From: Dyella psychrodurans
GTDB taxonomy: Bacteria > Pseudomonadota > Gammaproteobacteria > Xanthomonadales > Rhodanobacteraceae
Assembly: GCF_003363265.1 (NCBI RefSeq)
Contig: NZ_QRBF01000006.1
Span: 62,001 to 126,000 of the forward strand
Direction of reading: 5' to 3'
Length of the DNA stretch: 64,000 nucleotides
Within the stretch, counting starts at the first letter, position 1. Every line of letters begins with the position of its first letter. A model generated the notes under the pieces. The model was given only the letters and a program-made list of their open reading frames with translations. It did not search any database and was not told where the DNA came from. Of this stretch, positions 10,610-13,921 are shown piece after piece. Made by a program: the position numbers and the translations under genes.

Positions 10610-10636
10610 TTATCGGCCGGGGGCGGGGCAGCTTTA
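10610..10636 (-). promoter_or_regulatory. Sigma-28 promoter of the STAS-cheY-cheA operon
   Basis: Minus strand TAAAGCTG, 11-bp C-rich spacer, GCCGATAA (exact -10 consensus), 36 bp before the STAS start codon. Confidence 0.85.
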
Positions 10637-10707
10637 GGTATTGGTCTTGGGATTTTTTGGCTGCTGCGGTGCCTGATGACGTTGTTGTGCGCGTACGCTT
10701 CACGCCC

Positions 10708-11520
10708 GTCGTCCCGGCGTAAGCCGGGACCCAGTGACTTTGGCTTGTGGTTGCGCTGGTGCGTCATCGCCAGGTTGCTCGCCTGCGCGGCGGGCGTTTC
10801 GACCGTCTGCCGACGGCCGAGTCACTTTCTCTTGCTTGCCCAAGAGAAAGATAACCAAAGAGAAGGGCACCCCGGAGCCGGTGCTCTCCGGGCTGCGCCC
10901 TCCGAGGCGTGAGCTGGGGCCGGGCTTTTCGACAGGGCTTCCTGCCCTGGCGAAAAGGGATCGGCATCCATGCCGATCCCCCTGCGGGCCTTGTCGTCCC
11001 CAGCTCACTCACCGCCTACGGGGCCCAGGGCGCGCGATGCGCGCACTTTTCAAAAGAGCAAAAACCCATGAGCCAAAGCTAAAGAGCGAGAAGCGAGAAG
11101 CGAAAACACCGTGCACTGCTGCCTGCGCGTTCTTCCGGCGCTACGCGCCGGCACCGAGTGCGCGCAGCGCGCGCTGCTCTGGCTCTAGCTCCTGCTCTTG
11201 ACCTTGGGGCCCCTTGGACCCGGCGGAGGGATGGAGGATCAGCCCGTAGGGGAGCCGGCATGGATGCCGGCTCGTTTTTCGTCAGCACAGGAGGTGCTGT
11301 CGAAAAACCCCGCAATCCCTCCGCGCACTTTGTGGGCGAAGCCCGCAAAGCGGGTACTCGGGGCTGCCCTTCTCTTTGGTTATCTTTCTCTTGGGCAAGC
11401 AAGAGAAAGTGACTCGGCCGTCGGCAGACGGTCGAAACGCCCGCCGCGCAGGCGAGCAATCCGGCCTCAACACACAACCAAAAACCGAAGCCACTGGATC
11501 CCGGCTTTCGCCGGGACGAC
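10708..11520. repeat. Long paired-arm inverted-repeat element, copy 1
   Basis: About 813 bp without a credible gene. Both ends are REP-like palindromes (GTCCCGGC-4 nt-GCCGGGAC at 10711-10730; CCACTGGATCCCGGC with its partner at 11491-11520). Inside these, a left arm (about 10773-10880: GTTGCTCGCCTGCGCGGC, then GAGTCACTTTCTCTTGC, then AACCAAAGAGAAGGGCACC) recurs as its reverse complement in the right arm (about 11363-11460). The centre holds several strong hairpins. Copy 2 at 30575-31373 is highly similar throughout. Small ORFs inside lack ribosome sites and flagellar-like codon use. Confidence 0.85.
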
Positions 11521-11571
11521 GGAGTGAAGCAAGAGGCAAGTAGTGCAGCAATCGGGCGCAAAAACAAACCC

Positions 11572-11598
11572 TAAAGTTTCCCAATCCCCCGCCGATAC
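11572..11598 (+). promoter_or_regulatory. Sigma-28 promoter of the FliK-like/FlhB-like pair
   Basis: TAAAGTTT (exact -35 consensus), 11-bp spacer, GCCGATAC, 49 bp before the GTG start at 11648. One of the best sigma-28 matches in the window, on the opposite strand from most flagellar genes. Confidence 0.88.
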
Positions 11599-11647
11599 CC
11601 ATCACCAGGCCCTGTGAACACCCGCGATCACAGACCGAGGAGTCCGC

Positions 11648-12775
11648 GTGATCATCCAGCCAACCAGCGTTGCCGCACTGACCTGGCTCGGTGCCGCCGC
11701 CGGCGCCAGCTCCGAAGGCTGGCGCATCGGCACCGTGTTGTCTGCGCGCCCCCTCGGCATCAACGAACAGGGCCTGATGGTGCTGCAAGTCGGGGCCCTC
11801 ACCGTGGAGGCCGAAGCCCCCGGCACCAAACTCCCGCCGCAATTCCAGGTGCGCGTGCTCAGCGTGGGTGCGCAGCCGCAACTCGAAATTCTCGGCGACA
11901 CCTCGCTCGACGGCACCGTCAACCAGGCGCTGCGCGGCCGCCTGCCCCAGCAGAACGGTTACGCGCCGTTGCTCGCCACGGTCGGCGCGCTCTCGCAATG
12001 GTCTGTCGCGCGGCAGTTGCCGCCTTATCTGCGTTCCGCGCTGGCCCTGCTCGAACACAGCATGAGCACGCCGCAGGAGTTGGCCACGCCCGAAGGACTG
12101 CGCCAGGCGATCAATCGCAGCGGCGTCTTCCTCGAAGCGCAACTCGCGCAGGCACCGGCCAACGACGCCACGACCGCCCACGACGACATGAAAGGCGCGA
12201 TGCTGCGCCTGATGGCGATCCTCAAGGGTCAGCCCGCTTTCGCGGAAGGCAGTGACGTGGAGATCGATCCGCCGCTGCTTTATCGCGGCGTCATTCCGCA
12301 GGGCCGATGGCCGCTGCCCACGGATCTGGCCAGTTCCAGCGAAGCCACCGATTTCTTGCCGCGCCTGTACACCGACGTGCAGGCCGCGTTGGCGCGCCTC
12401 GAAGTCGCGCAGCTGCAAGCGACACCCGGGCACTGGACGGTGGAAATCCCCGTGCAGGACGAAGACGGCGCCGACGTGCTGCAGCTGCTGCTGAAGCACC
12501 AGGAAGATGCCGAACAAAGCTGGACGATGGGCTTTTCGCTCGACTTGCCGTCGCTGGGCCCCATCGTCGGCGAGCTTCACTTGCGCGGTTTGCGCCTCTC
12601 GGTGCGACTGTGGGCGCAGCATCGGGAGACCGTCGATAAGCTGGAGGAGCAGTTCGACAATCTGCGCTCGCGCGTGGATGCCACCGGTCTGTTTCTCGAT
12701 CAGCTGAGCTGCCAGCACGGCCTTCCACAAGCCGGAAGCAGCGTCAGTGCCGTATTTTTGAAGGCCACGGTATGA
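11648..12775 (+). CDS. FliK-like protein with C-terminal hook-length-control domain
   Basis: 375 aa. The C-terminal ~100 residues (WTVEIPVQDEDGADVLQLLL ... LGPIVGELHLRGLRLSVRLW ... LEEQFDNLRSRVDATGLFLD) match the pattern of the Flg_hook domain of FliK. The N-terminal 250 residues are an OB-like start (VLSARPLGINEQGLMVLQVG) and an alpha-helical middle, not the Gln/Ser/Ala-rich ruler of the true fliK at 31401. GTG start with GAGGAG 7 nt upstream. It overlaps the next gene by ATGA. FliK controls the export switch through FlhB; this paralogue, coupled to an FlhB-CTD-like protein and under sigma-28, may act late in export. The function is not known. Confidence 0.8.
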   Translation: MIIQPTSVAALTWLGAAAGASSEGWRIGTVLSARPLGINEQGLMVLQVGALTVEAEAPGTKLPPQFQVRVLSVGAQPQLEILGDTSLDGTVNQALRGRLPQQNGYAPLLATVGALSQWSVARQLPPYLRSALALLEHSMSTPQELATPEGLRQAINRSGVFLEAQLAQAPANDATTAHDDMKGAMLRLMAILKGQPAFAEGSDVEIDPPLLYRGVIPQGRWPLPTDLASSSEATDFLPRLYTDVQAALARLEVAQLQATPGHWTVEIPVQDEDGADVLQLLLKHQEDAEQSWTMGFSLDLPSLGPIVGELHLRGLRLSVRLWAQHRETVDKLEEQFDNLRSRVDATGLFLDQLSCQHGLPQAGSSVSAVFLKATV

Positions 12776-13041
12776 CACAGCCGCTCCTGCCCAAGCCGCA
12801 ACGCAAGGTCGTGCTTCGTCTGTCGGGCGGCGATGAGGCGGCAACGTCCGCGCAGCTGCATGCCGGCGATGTCGACAATCTGTTCCGGCACGCGCACGCG
12901 CTGGGCCTGCCGTTGCATCACGATCCGCAAGTGGCCGCGCTGCTGGTATCGCTGCGCATGAGCGCCGATGTGCCACCGACTCTGTACGCGGCGGCGGCCG
13001 CGGTGCTCGCCACCATCTACGACGCGTCGCGCAAACCGTAA
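12772..13041 (+). CDS. Small FlhB C-terminal-domain-like protein (FhlB type)
   Basis: 89 aa resembling only the cytoplasmic tail of FlhB/YscU: LGLPLHHDPQVAALLVSLRM followed by VPPTLYAAAAAVLATIYDAS, to be compared with NIPLVEAPPLARALY and IPAALYVAVAQILAYVYQL of the true FlhB in this window. The autocleaved N-P-T-H loop and all membrane helices are missing. ATGA overlap with the FliK-like gene indicates coupled translation. Stand-alone FlhB-tail proteins next to FliK-like proteins are known in other flagellated bacteria (for example YlqH in Bacillus) but are poorly understood. The next gene is convergent, 9 nt away. Confidence 0.8.
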   Translation: MTQPLLPKPQRKVVLRLSGGDEAATSAQLHAGDVDNLFRHAHALGLPLHHDPQVAALLVSLRMSADVPPTLYAAAAAVLATIYDASRKP

Positions 13042-13050
13042 CAGCCGTGC

Positions 13051-13455
13051 TTACGCACGCTTGGCGTGCAGGCGCAGTACCAGTTCCGCTTCGTTGCGCG
13101 AAAGACCGCAGCGGGTCATCAGCTGTTCGAGATCGCTGCCTTCGCGCGCCAGCTGCTGTGCAAGCTCGTAGTTGTGCGCGACGACGTGCTGCCCTGTCGT
13201 CGGCATCGCCATCTGCGTTGCGCGAATCTCCACGGAACGACGCGGTACGTCGACCTGCTGTGTGCGCGCTTCGAGCACGCCCAGCCGATGGTCGATCTTG
13301 TTGAGCGCGTTGATCAGCAGCAATTCGGGCACGCTTCCCGATTCGTCATGCCTGCCGGCAAGCATGCGCTCGATGCGACGCCCCTGACGCCACAACAAGG
13401 CGAGCGTAACGATCTGCAGTACGGCCAGCGCGATAACCGCCATGTCAAGCCACAT
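13051..13455 (-). CDS. DUF2802 membrane-anchored chemotaxis-linked protein
   Basis: 134 aa. One N-terminal transmembrane helix (DMAVIALAVLQIVTLALLW), a basic stretch, then a C-terminal helical motif (YELAQQLAREGSDLEQLMTR CGLSRNEAEL, split here) characteristic of DUF2802. The C-terminal motif looks like a helix-turn-helix of the Sec-independent type found at the end of Pseudomonas/Xanthomonas che operons. Start ATG at 13455 has GGGAG 7-8 nt upstream and overlaps the cheW stop by 11 nt. Its function is undescribed; operon position suggests a membrane-associated accessory to the array or motor. Confidence 0.8.
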   Translation of the reverse strand: MWLDMAVIALAVLQIVTLALLWRQGRRIERMLAGRHDESGSVPELLLINALNKIDHRLGVLEARTQQVDVPRRSVEIRATQMAMPTTGQHVVAHNYELAQQLAREGSDLEQLMTRCGLSRNEAELVLRLHAKRA

Positions 13456-13921
13456 GCTGCAACTCCCGGTGGAGACGGCATAGACGTGCGACATCGAGCA
13501 AGGCCACGAAACCGCCCTGCCAGCCCATCACCACCTGCACGGGATCGTCCACGCGCCCCGAACGCGCCGGCGGCAAGGTGATGGCCTCGGCCTTCGGCTG
13601 CAGCAACTCGCCCACGGCGTCGACGCGCAGGCCGACGCGATGTGCTTCGTGTGCAAACACCACGATGCGTACCGCCGATGGATCGTCCGGCATCGCATCC
13701 TTCAGGCCAAGGCGGCGGCGGCCGTCCATCACCGGCACGATATTGCCGCGCAGATGGCAGATGCCGAGCAGGTCCGCCGCCGCACCGGGAACCGGCGTCG
13801 GCGCGCAGTCGCGAATGACTTCGCTCACCTGGTTGAGCAGCACCGCGTAATGCTGGCCGTCCAATTGGAACGACAGCCAGGGTTCGCGCACCAGCGCTTC
13901 GATGTTGGGAACAAGGCTCAT
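13445..13921 (-). CDS. cheW: Coupling protein CheW (flagellar pathway)
   Basis: 158 aa, single CheW domain: WLSFQLDGQHYAVLLNQVSE, VPGAAADLLGICHLRGNIVP and a C-terminal VALLDVARL. It differs strongly from the other CheW (5421-5927) and belongs to the fliA-cheYZA-motCD operon. It starts 8 nt after motD. In Pseudomonas the equivalent site holds parC and parP before cheW; here they are absent and motD is followed directly by cheW. Confidence 0.93.
   Translation of the reverse strand: MSLVPNIEALVREPWLSFQLDGQHYAVLLNQVSEVIRDCAPTPVPGAAADLLGICHLRGNIVPVMDGRRRLGLKDAMPDDPSAVRIVVFAHEAHRVGLRVDAVGELLQPKAEAITLPPARSGRVDDPVQVVMGWQGGFVALLDVARLCRLHRELQHVA

Follow-up and report, generated by a model that had tools for sequence, protein, structure and literature searches.

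According to PMC13344023, the Salmonella flagellar export gate is held in its early mode by the C-terminal fragment of FlhB; this fragment disappears at ~40 min as class 3 expression begins, FliK is required for its disappearance, its loss alone suffices for late secretion, and an action on it has been proposed for the five C-terminal residues of FliK. In Xanthomonas, the C-terminal fragment of HrcU functions in trans when detached, as described in PMC3040844. The locus analysed here bears on the means by which the gate passes from hook to filament export, and on whether the FlhB fragment removed by FliK has any replacement. Stand-alone FlhB-type tails are known to databases under the profile TIGR00789 (flhB_rel), with B. 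subtilis YlqH and H. pylori HP1575/FlhX as members or analogues. To our knowledge, Salmonella and E. coli do not have such a tail paired with a FliK paralogue.

Here we describe, in a 64,000-nucleotide stretch of Dyella psychrodurans DNA (the window), a gene pair that encodes a FliK paralogue, FliK2, and a stand-alone FlhB-type tail of 89 amino acids. Like the TIGR00789 tails, this one is the product of a separate gene, matches the profile (though below its cut-off) and has neither NPTH nor membrane helices in its sequence, as the preliminary description had noted; unlike them, it is coupled to a FliK paralogue of its own and, in the window's family (f1), goes with a sigma-28-type promoter and has lost the motif xPx[VIL]x[AS]xG. 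Compared with the C-terminal fragment of FlhB (FlhBCC/FlhBCCD), tails of the wider family align with the cleaved chains from just after PTH, but the tail is untethered and uncleaved, and in family f1 its N-terminal part has diverged; full-length FlhB, which this genome encodes elsewhere, differs in having the membrane part and NPTH. FliK2 shares with the FliK/PscP switch proteins (T3S4 domain) its Flg_hook domain and a modelled C-terminal domain, but, where those proteins have a variable ruler, it carries a conserved and folded N-terminal half, and it forms a separate group. A literature search found no study of the FliK2/tail pair, a type that is apparently unstudied; what sets it apart here is the late-type control and the loss of motif and tag in family f1.

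Gene pair and its domains

The pair lies on the plus strand and the neighbouring chemotaxis and flagellar genes on the minus strand (Table 1), and the preliminary description had given its coordinates exactly, along with the opposite-strand placement and the ATGA overlap. That overlap is the same in all 13 pairs of family f1 and in both f7 pairs; it supports translational coupling, and the profile matches below support the earlier reading as FliK-type and FlhB-type partners.

Table 1. Features of the FliK2/tail locus, in positions of the window
Feature	Position	Strand	Remarks
Sigma-28 (FliA)-type promoter	11572..11598	+	TAAAGTTT-N11-GCCGATAC; 1 mismatch in 16
FliK2	11648..12775	+	GTG start, 375 codons, stop ending 12775; folded FliK paralogue (modelled barrel, helical domain, switch domain)
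Flg_hook (FliK switch) domain	12500..12730	+	FliK2 residues 285-361; E 2.9e-14
ATGA stop/start overlap, FliK2/tail	12772..12775	+	
Stand-alone FlhB-type C-terminal fragment	12772..13041	+	ATG start, 89 codons; TIGR00789, relatives' profiles
DUF2802 (FipA-type polar landmark) gene	13051-13494		Convergent with tail gene, 9 bp apart

FliK2 matches Flg_hook (PF02120) well above the curated cut-off (53.1 against 29.8 bits), as expected of the 375-residue protein, and its modelled C-terminal domain resembles PscP (5cuk) and FliK (2rrl). The label FliK-like thus holds for the switch domain, but not for the build of a ruler: block identity is 0.45-0.71 all along FliK2, as against 0.01-0.25 ahead of the switch domain in ordinary FliK, and the structure model is folded (mean pLDDT 80.3), so that a variable, largely unfolded N-terminal ruler part is not found in FliK2 by either measure. 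By sequence conservation and model, FliK2 is not a ruler, the N-terminal half being conserved and folded. In the tree, from which L091 was omitted for its doubtful end, FliK2 falls in a separate group.

The tail does match an FlhB-type profile, as had been anticipated, but weakly: TIGR00789 aligns with residues 35-85 (E 8.4e-6, 25.9 bits, below a cut-off of 117.35 that none of 369 class genomes reached among the matches listed), and PF01312 gives only E 0.06. A profile of 15 relatives, two f7 tails included, found six PDB FlhB sequences (E 1.6e-6 to 3.3e-5), and a profile of the 13 family f1 tails alone had FlhB as its best PDB hit at only E 0.014. Our acceptance of FlhB homology rests on three points in agreement: the TIGR00789 match of the single sequence, the f7 tails as intermediates, and a gene arrangement that is identical. 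In its N-terminal part the family f1 tail is barely FlhB-like, and the structure model of the tail is poor (mean pLDDT 55.6; strand-strand-helix-helix-helix), with no Foldseek match. For tails of the wider family (profile of 14), the best PDB hits are 3b1s_B and 3b0z_B, both separate cleaved FlhB C-terminal chains, with which they align from residues 2-3 of those chains on; by this alignment, the wider-family tail gene starts where the autocleaved FlhB fragment starts, without PTH.

Besides the pair, the host genome encodes a FliK and an FlhB of the ordinary kind, one of each, the full-length FlhB carrying NPTH when read by eye. The preliminary description had placed both genes under sigma-54; the genes are present, but sigma-54 control is only plausible, with two exact sigma-54-like sites (30171 and 38599) on the strand of ordinary FliK and FlhB and, at no more than one mismatch, four sites against 3.3 expected by chance.

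Distribution

An order-level search of 121 genomes returned 17 tail matches, of which 15 were kept, 13 in family f1 and 2 in f7; the matches in L019 and L020 (E 0.0025 and 0.0047, an internal stop in each) were discarded. In family f1 the tail occurs in 13 of 14 Flg_hook-positive genomes and in none of the five Flg_hook-negative ones, and each of the 13 encodes two Flg_hook proteins and a full-length FlhB, in agreement with the claim that the pair coexists with ordinary FliK and FlhB. No tail was found in the flagellated family f2 (14 Flg_hook-positive genomes, FliK and FlhB present). Within the genus, FliK2 is present in 15 of 16 genomes. The one flagellated genome of family f1 without the pair, G060 (L042), belongs to the same genus; its FlhB-type genes of full length number two, and its only FliK is divergent. 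The fragmented f7-family genome G017 (L039) encodes FliK2 and the tail but neither a full-length FlhB nor a second Flg_hook protein, probably through incompleteness.

At the level of the class, TIGR00789 matches occur in 206 of 369 genomes, 137 of them with matches at two or more places (hand count, among the matches listed), as FlhB together with a stand-alone tail would give; single matches carry little information because the profile also finds full-length FlhB. Thirty of the best-scoring class loci were fetched, and 27 could be placed (not L059, L061 and L086); a large open reading frame (ORF) lies immediately upstream in 26, all 26 matching Flg_hook, and no FliK-type ORF was found at L085. 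Among named gammaproteobacterial tail loci (the best 80 of 573 relatives, including Sedimenticola, Cycloclasticus, Methylomonas, Methylobacter, Thiodiazotropha, Hahella and Alkalilimnicola), 53 of 80 have a FliK-type ORF directly upstream of the tail, with a four-base overlap in 41 of the 53, and all 48 upstream ORFs that were scanned match Flg_hook. Alignments of these sequences (A4 and A5) drew on 38 of the 48 usable FliK2 from named loci and on 50 of the 80 named tails. The pair is no local oddity but of a widespread type, and looks like an old paralogous set retained beside ordinary FliK and FlhB.

In the other 27 of these best 80 of 573 loci, mostly bearing methanotroph names, the searched upstream place holds no ORF of at least 200 codons; three of the 27 start contigs (L145, L156 and L164). 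The one inspected by eye, L133, has its tail gene (L133:3977-4261, Methylomonas sp. LW13) after a queF-like gene, with no FliK beside it.

Sigma-28-type promoter

The spaced sigma-28 pattern matches once in the window and not at all in 100 shuffles. Two places in the 4.54-Mb genome come within one mismatch of the 16-base consensus, namely the FliK2 site and one ~40 bp upstream of flgM (L041:3058-3432). At up to two mismatches there are six places, against four for a reversed control pattern, a count so near the control that looser matches carry little weight and the case rests on conservation of the site. A sigma-28-type site (at most four mismatches within 200 bp before the FliK2 start) lies upstream of all 13 family f1 pairs and both f7 pairs, as against 5 of 3,000 first-order Markov controls, with the reservation that in the f7 pairs a better site points in the opposite direction. 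In the genus, the site has at most two mismatches at all six loci examined, window included.

The claim of a near-perfect FliA promoter therefore stands, with one mismatch in 16 and conservation in 13 of 13 family f1 pairs, and the promoter sequence is more than chance would give. Both fliA and flgM are encoded in the host genome, and the pair is presumably transcribed by FliA. The site for late-type control, as suggested earlier, is kept across family f1 but is not general: of the 53 paired named loci, which lie outside the family and come from the best 80 of 573, 47 had enough upstream DNA, and a site with at most three mismatches was found in 8 of these 47, while shuffled controls gave 1 in 940.

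A second, divergent sigma-28-type site with two mismatches lies on the minus strand at 10610-10636, before a STAS-domain gene and CheY- and CheA-like genes, and similar divergent sites are found at 7 of 12 other family f1 loci. The distance from such a two-mismatch site to the FliK2 start is 1011 bp in the window and 166-491 bp in four other genus loci; none was found at the genus locus L168. Between these two promoters, at 10706-11522, are repeats with inverted arms of 160 and 48 nt that are 85-88% complementary.

Motif, tag and selection in family f1

All 108 tails sampled outside family f1 carry the motif xPx[VIL]x[AS]xG (APKVVAKG in FlhB), as against 0 of 13 inside, from which it does not follow that the motif is always kept elsewhere, since the outside sample was selected partly by it (AP[RT][VI]TAKGxG was one of two scan patterns for the named set, and the class loci were high scorers). 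The AP dipeptide survives at a shifted place in 4 of the 13, and A341, which we take to be a pocket position, is retained in all 13.

The C-terminal tag of FliK is altered in the same family. Ordinary FliK of this genome ends in LLDAFA and FliK2 in FLKATV; a tag of the form hydrophobic-hydrophobic-D/N/S-x-x-A/V/I, a pattern defined after the sequences had been seen, occurs in none of the 13 FliK2 of family f1 and in 72 of 81 pairs elsewhere, the D being replaced in family f1 by E, K or Q. As tail motif and FliK2 tag are both altered in one family, they amount to one event and give only a hint of contact between the two. Over nine pairs, the tail has dN/dS values of 0.06-0.45 and FliK2 values of 0.07-0.45, which indicate purifying selection on both genes.

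Possible functions

Our preferred reading, which we hold with some reserve, draws on sequence comparison and on analogy with the Salmonella and Xanthomonas systems. FliK2 and the tail would be a cognate pair acting at the flagellar export gate, the tail being a counterpart, acting in trans, of the FlhB fragment that NPTH autocleavage leaves; to this tail the switch domain of the non-ruler FliK2 would bind as chaperone, loader or remover. Given the sigma-28-type promoter in family f1, the pair would be made once FlgM exits through the finished hook, a time that, by the Salmonella sequence of events, would coincide with the step at which FliK drives the loss of the C-terminal fragment belonging to FlhB itself. 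The tail would then most likely take, or compete for, the emptied FlhB site, and the gate would be held or tuned in its late (filament) mode. Because it is without the conserved loop-and-strand motif beside the early-substrate pocket, the tail should not restore hook-type export, and the altered motif would fit a role late in export better than an early one. Complex formation, occupancy of the site and the effect on the late mode are what we infer from the following.

Such a fragment acting in trans is favoured by the conserved overlap, the sigma-28-type site, the co-occurrence of tail and Flg_hook proteins, the matches of wider-family tails to cleaved FlhB chains, the switch domain of FliK2 without a ruler, the dN/dS values, the loss of the fragment in Salmonella and the function of the HrcU fragment in trans. 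Several observations count against it: late control is not general, 27 of the 80 named tails (best 80 of 573) are unpaired, family f2 is without a tail, and the family f1 tail is barely FlhB-like in its N-terminal part and poorly modelled. Moreover, since loss of the fragment suffices for late secretion in Salmonella, the gate would need no replacement, and restoring a working fragment might return it to its early mode.

It is unlikely that the tail is instead a spare part that backs up a missing or damaged FlhB fragment, with FliK2 only stabilising it. A Helicobacter paper on HP1575 reportedly, by its title, presents that protein as such a spare part, and both the HrcU fragment that functions in trans and the pocket motif kept in wider-family tails agree with it, but the motif is lost in all 13 family f1 tails, and a part required early would hardly be expected behind a late promoter. 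We give a similarly low standing to a cytosolic decoy or timer, in which a FliK2-tail complex would never enter the gate and would titrate FliK, early substrates or FlhA, setting the stop or restart of export; its appeal is that FliK2, modelled as folded throughout, would not be built for passage as a ruler, and that strict coupling suggests a fixed stoichiometry.

An accessory role in polar placement or chemotaxis, working with adjoining FipA/FlhF or CheW, we consider quite improbable. It would draw on the convergent DUF2802 gene, of the type of FipA (described in PMC11620751), which has counterparts in Alkalilimnicola (L142) and, with a score under the Pfam cut-off, at the f7 locus L039, and on the gene that follows it, CheW in the window and CheW-like by eye at the other two loci; other contexts speak against it, the pair adjoining fliJ and a type III ATPase (fliI-type) gene in Sedimenticola (L124) and ccmB in Hahella (L152), and the tail following queF at L133. 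That the pair does little today and merely survives from an ancient duplication is very improbable: family f1 has lost a motif kept by the other sampled tails, and FliK2 is absent from 1 of 16 genus genomes, but both genes are under purifying selection, FliK2 is kept in the other 15 and the promoter site in 13 of 13 family f1 pairs.

Significance

Returning to the fragment proposed to act in trans, a second, late switching or gating step, as the preliminary description proposed, is possible and would fit all the data. Doubtful, in our estimation, is a sigma-28-timed second switch module in which the altered fragment and the non-ruler FliK2 occupy the site emptied by FliK and lock or retune the gate for the filament. 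If it were true, the 'irreversible' switch would have a dedicated post-switch occupant, and the tail region and the FliK2 tag, altered together in one family, would fit each other as lock and key. The pair is a widespread duplicate of both partners of the switch, and its family f1 form, with a late-type promoter and an altered putative docking region, would provide natural variants for testing the emptied FlhB site.
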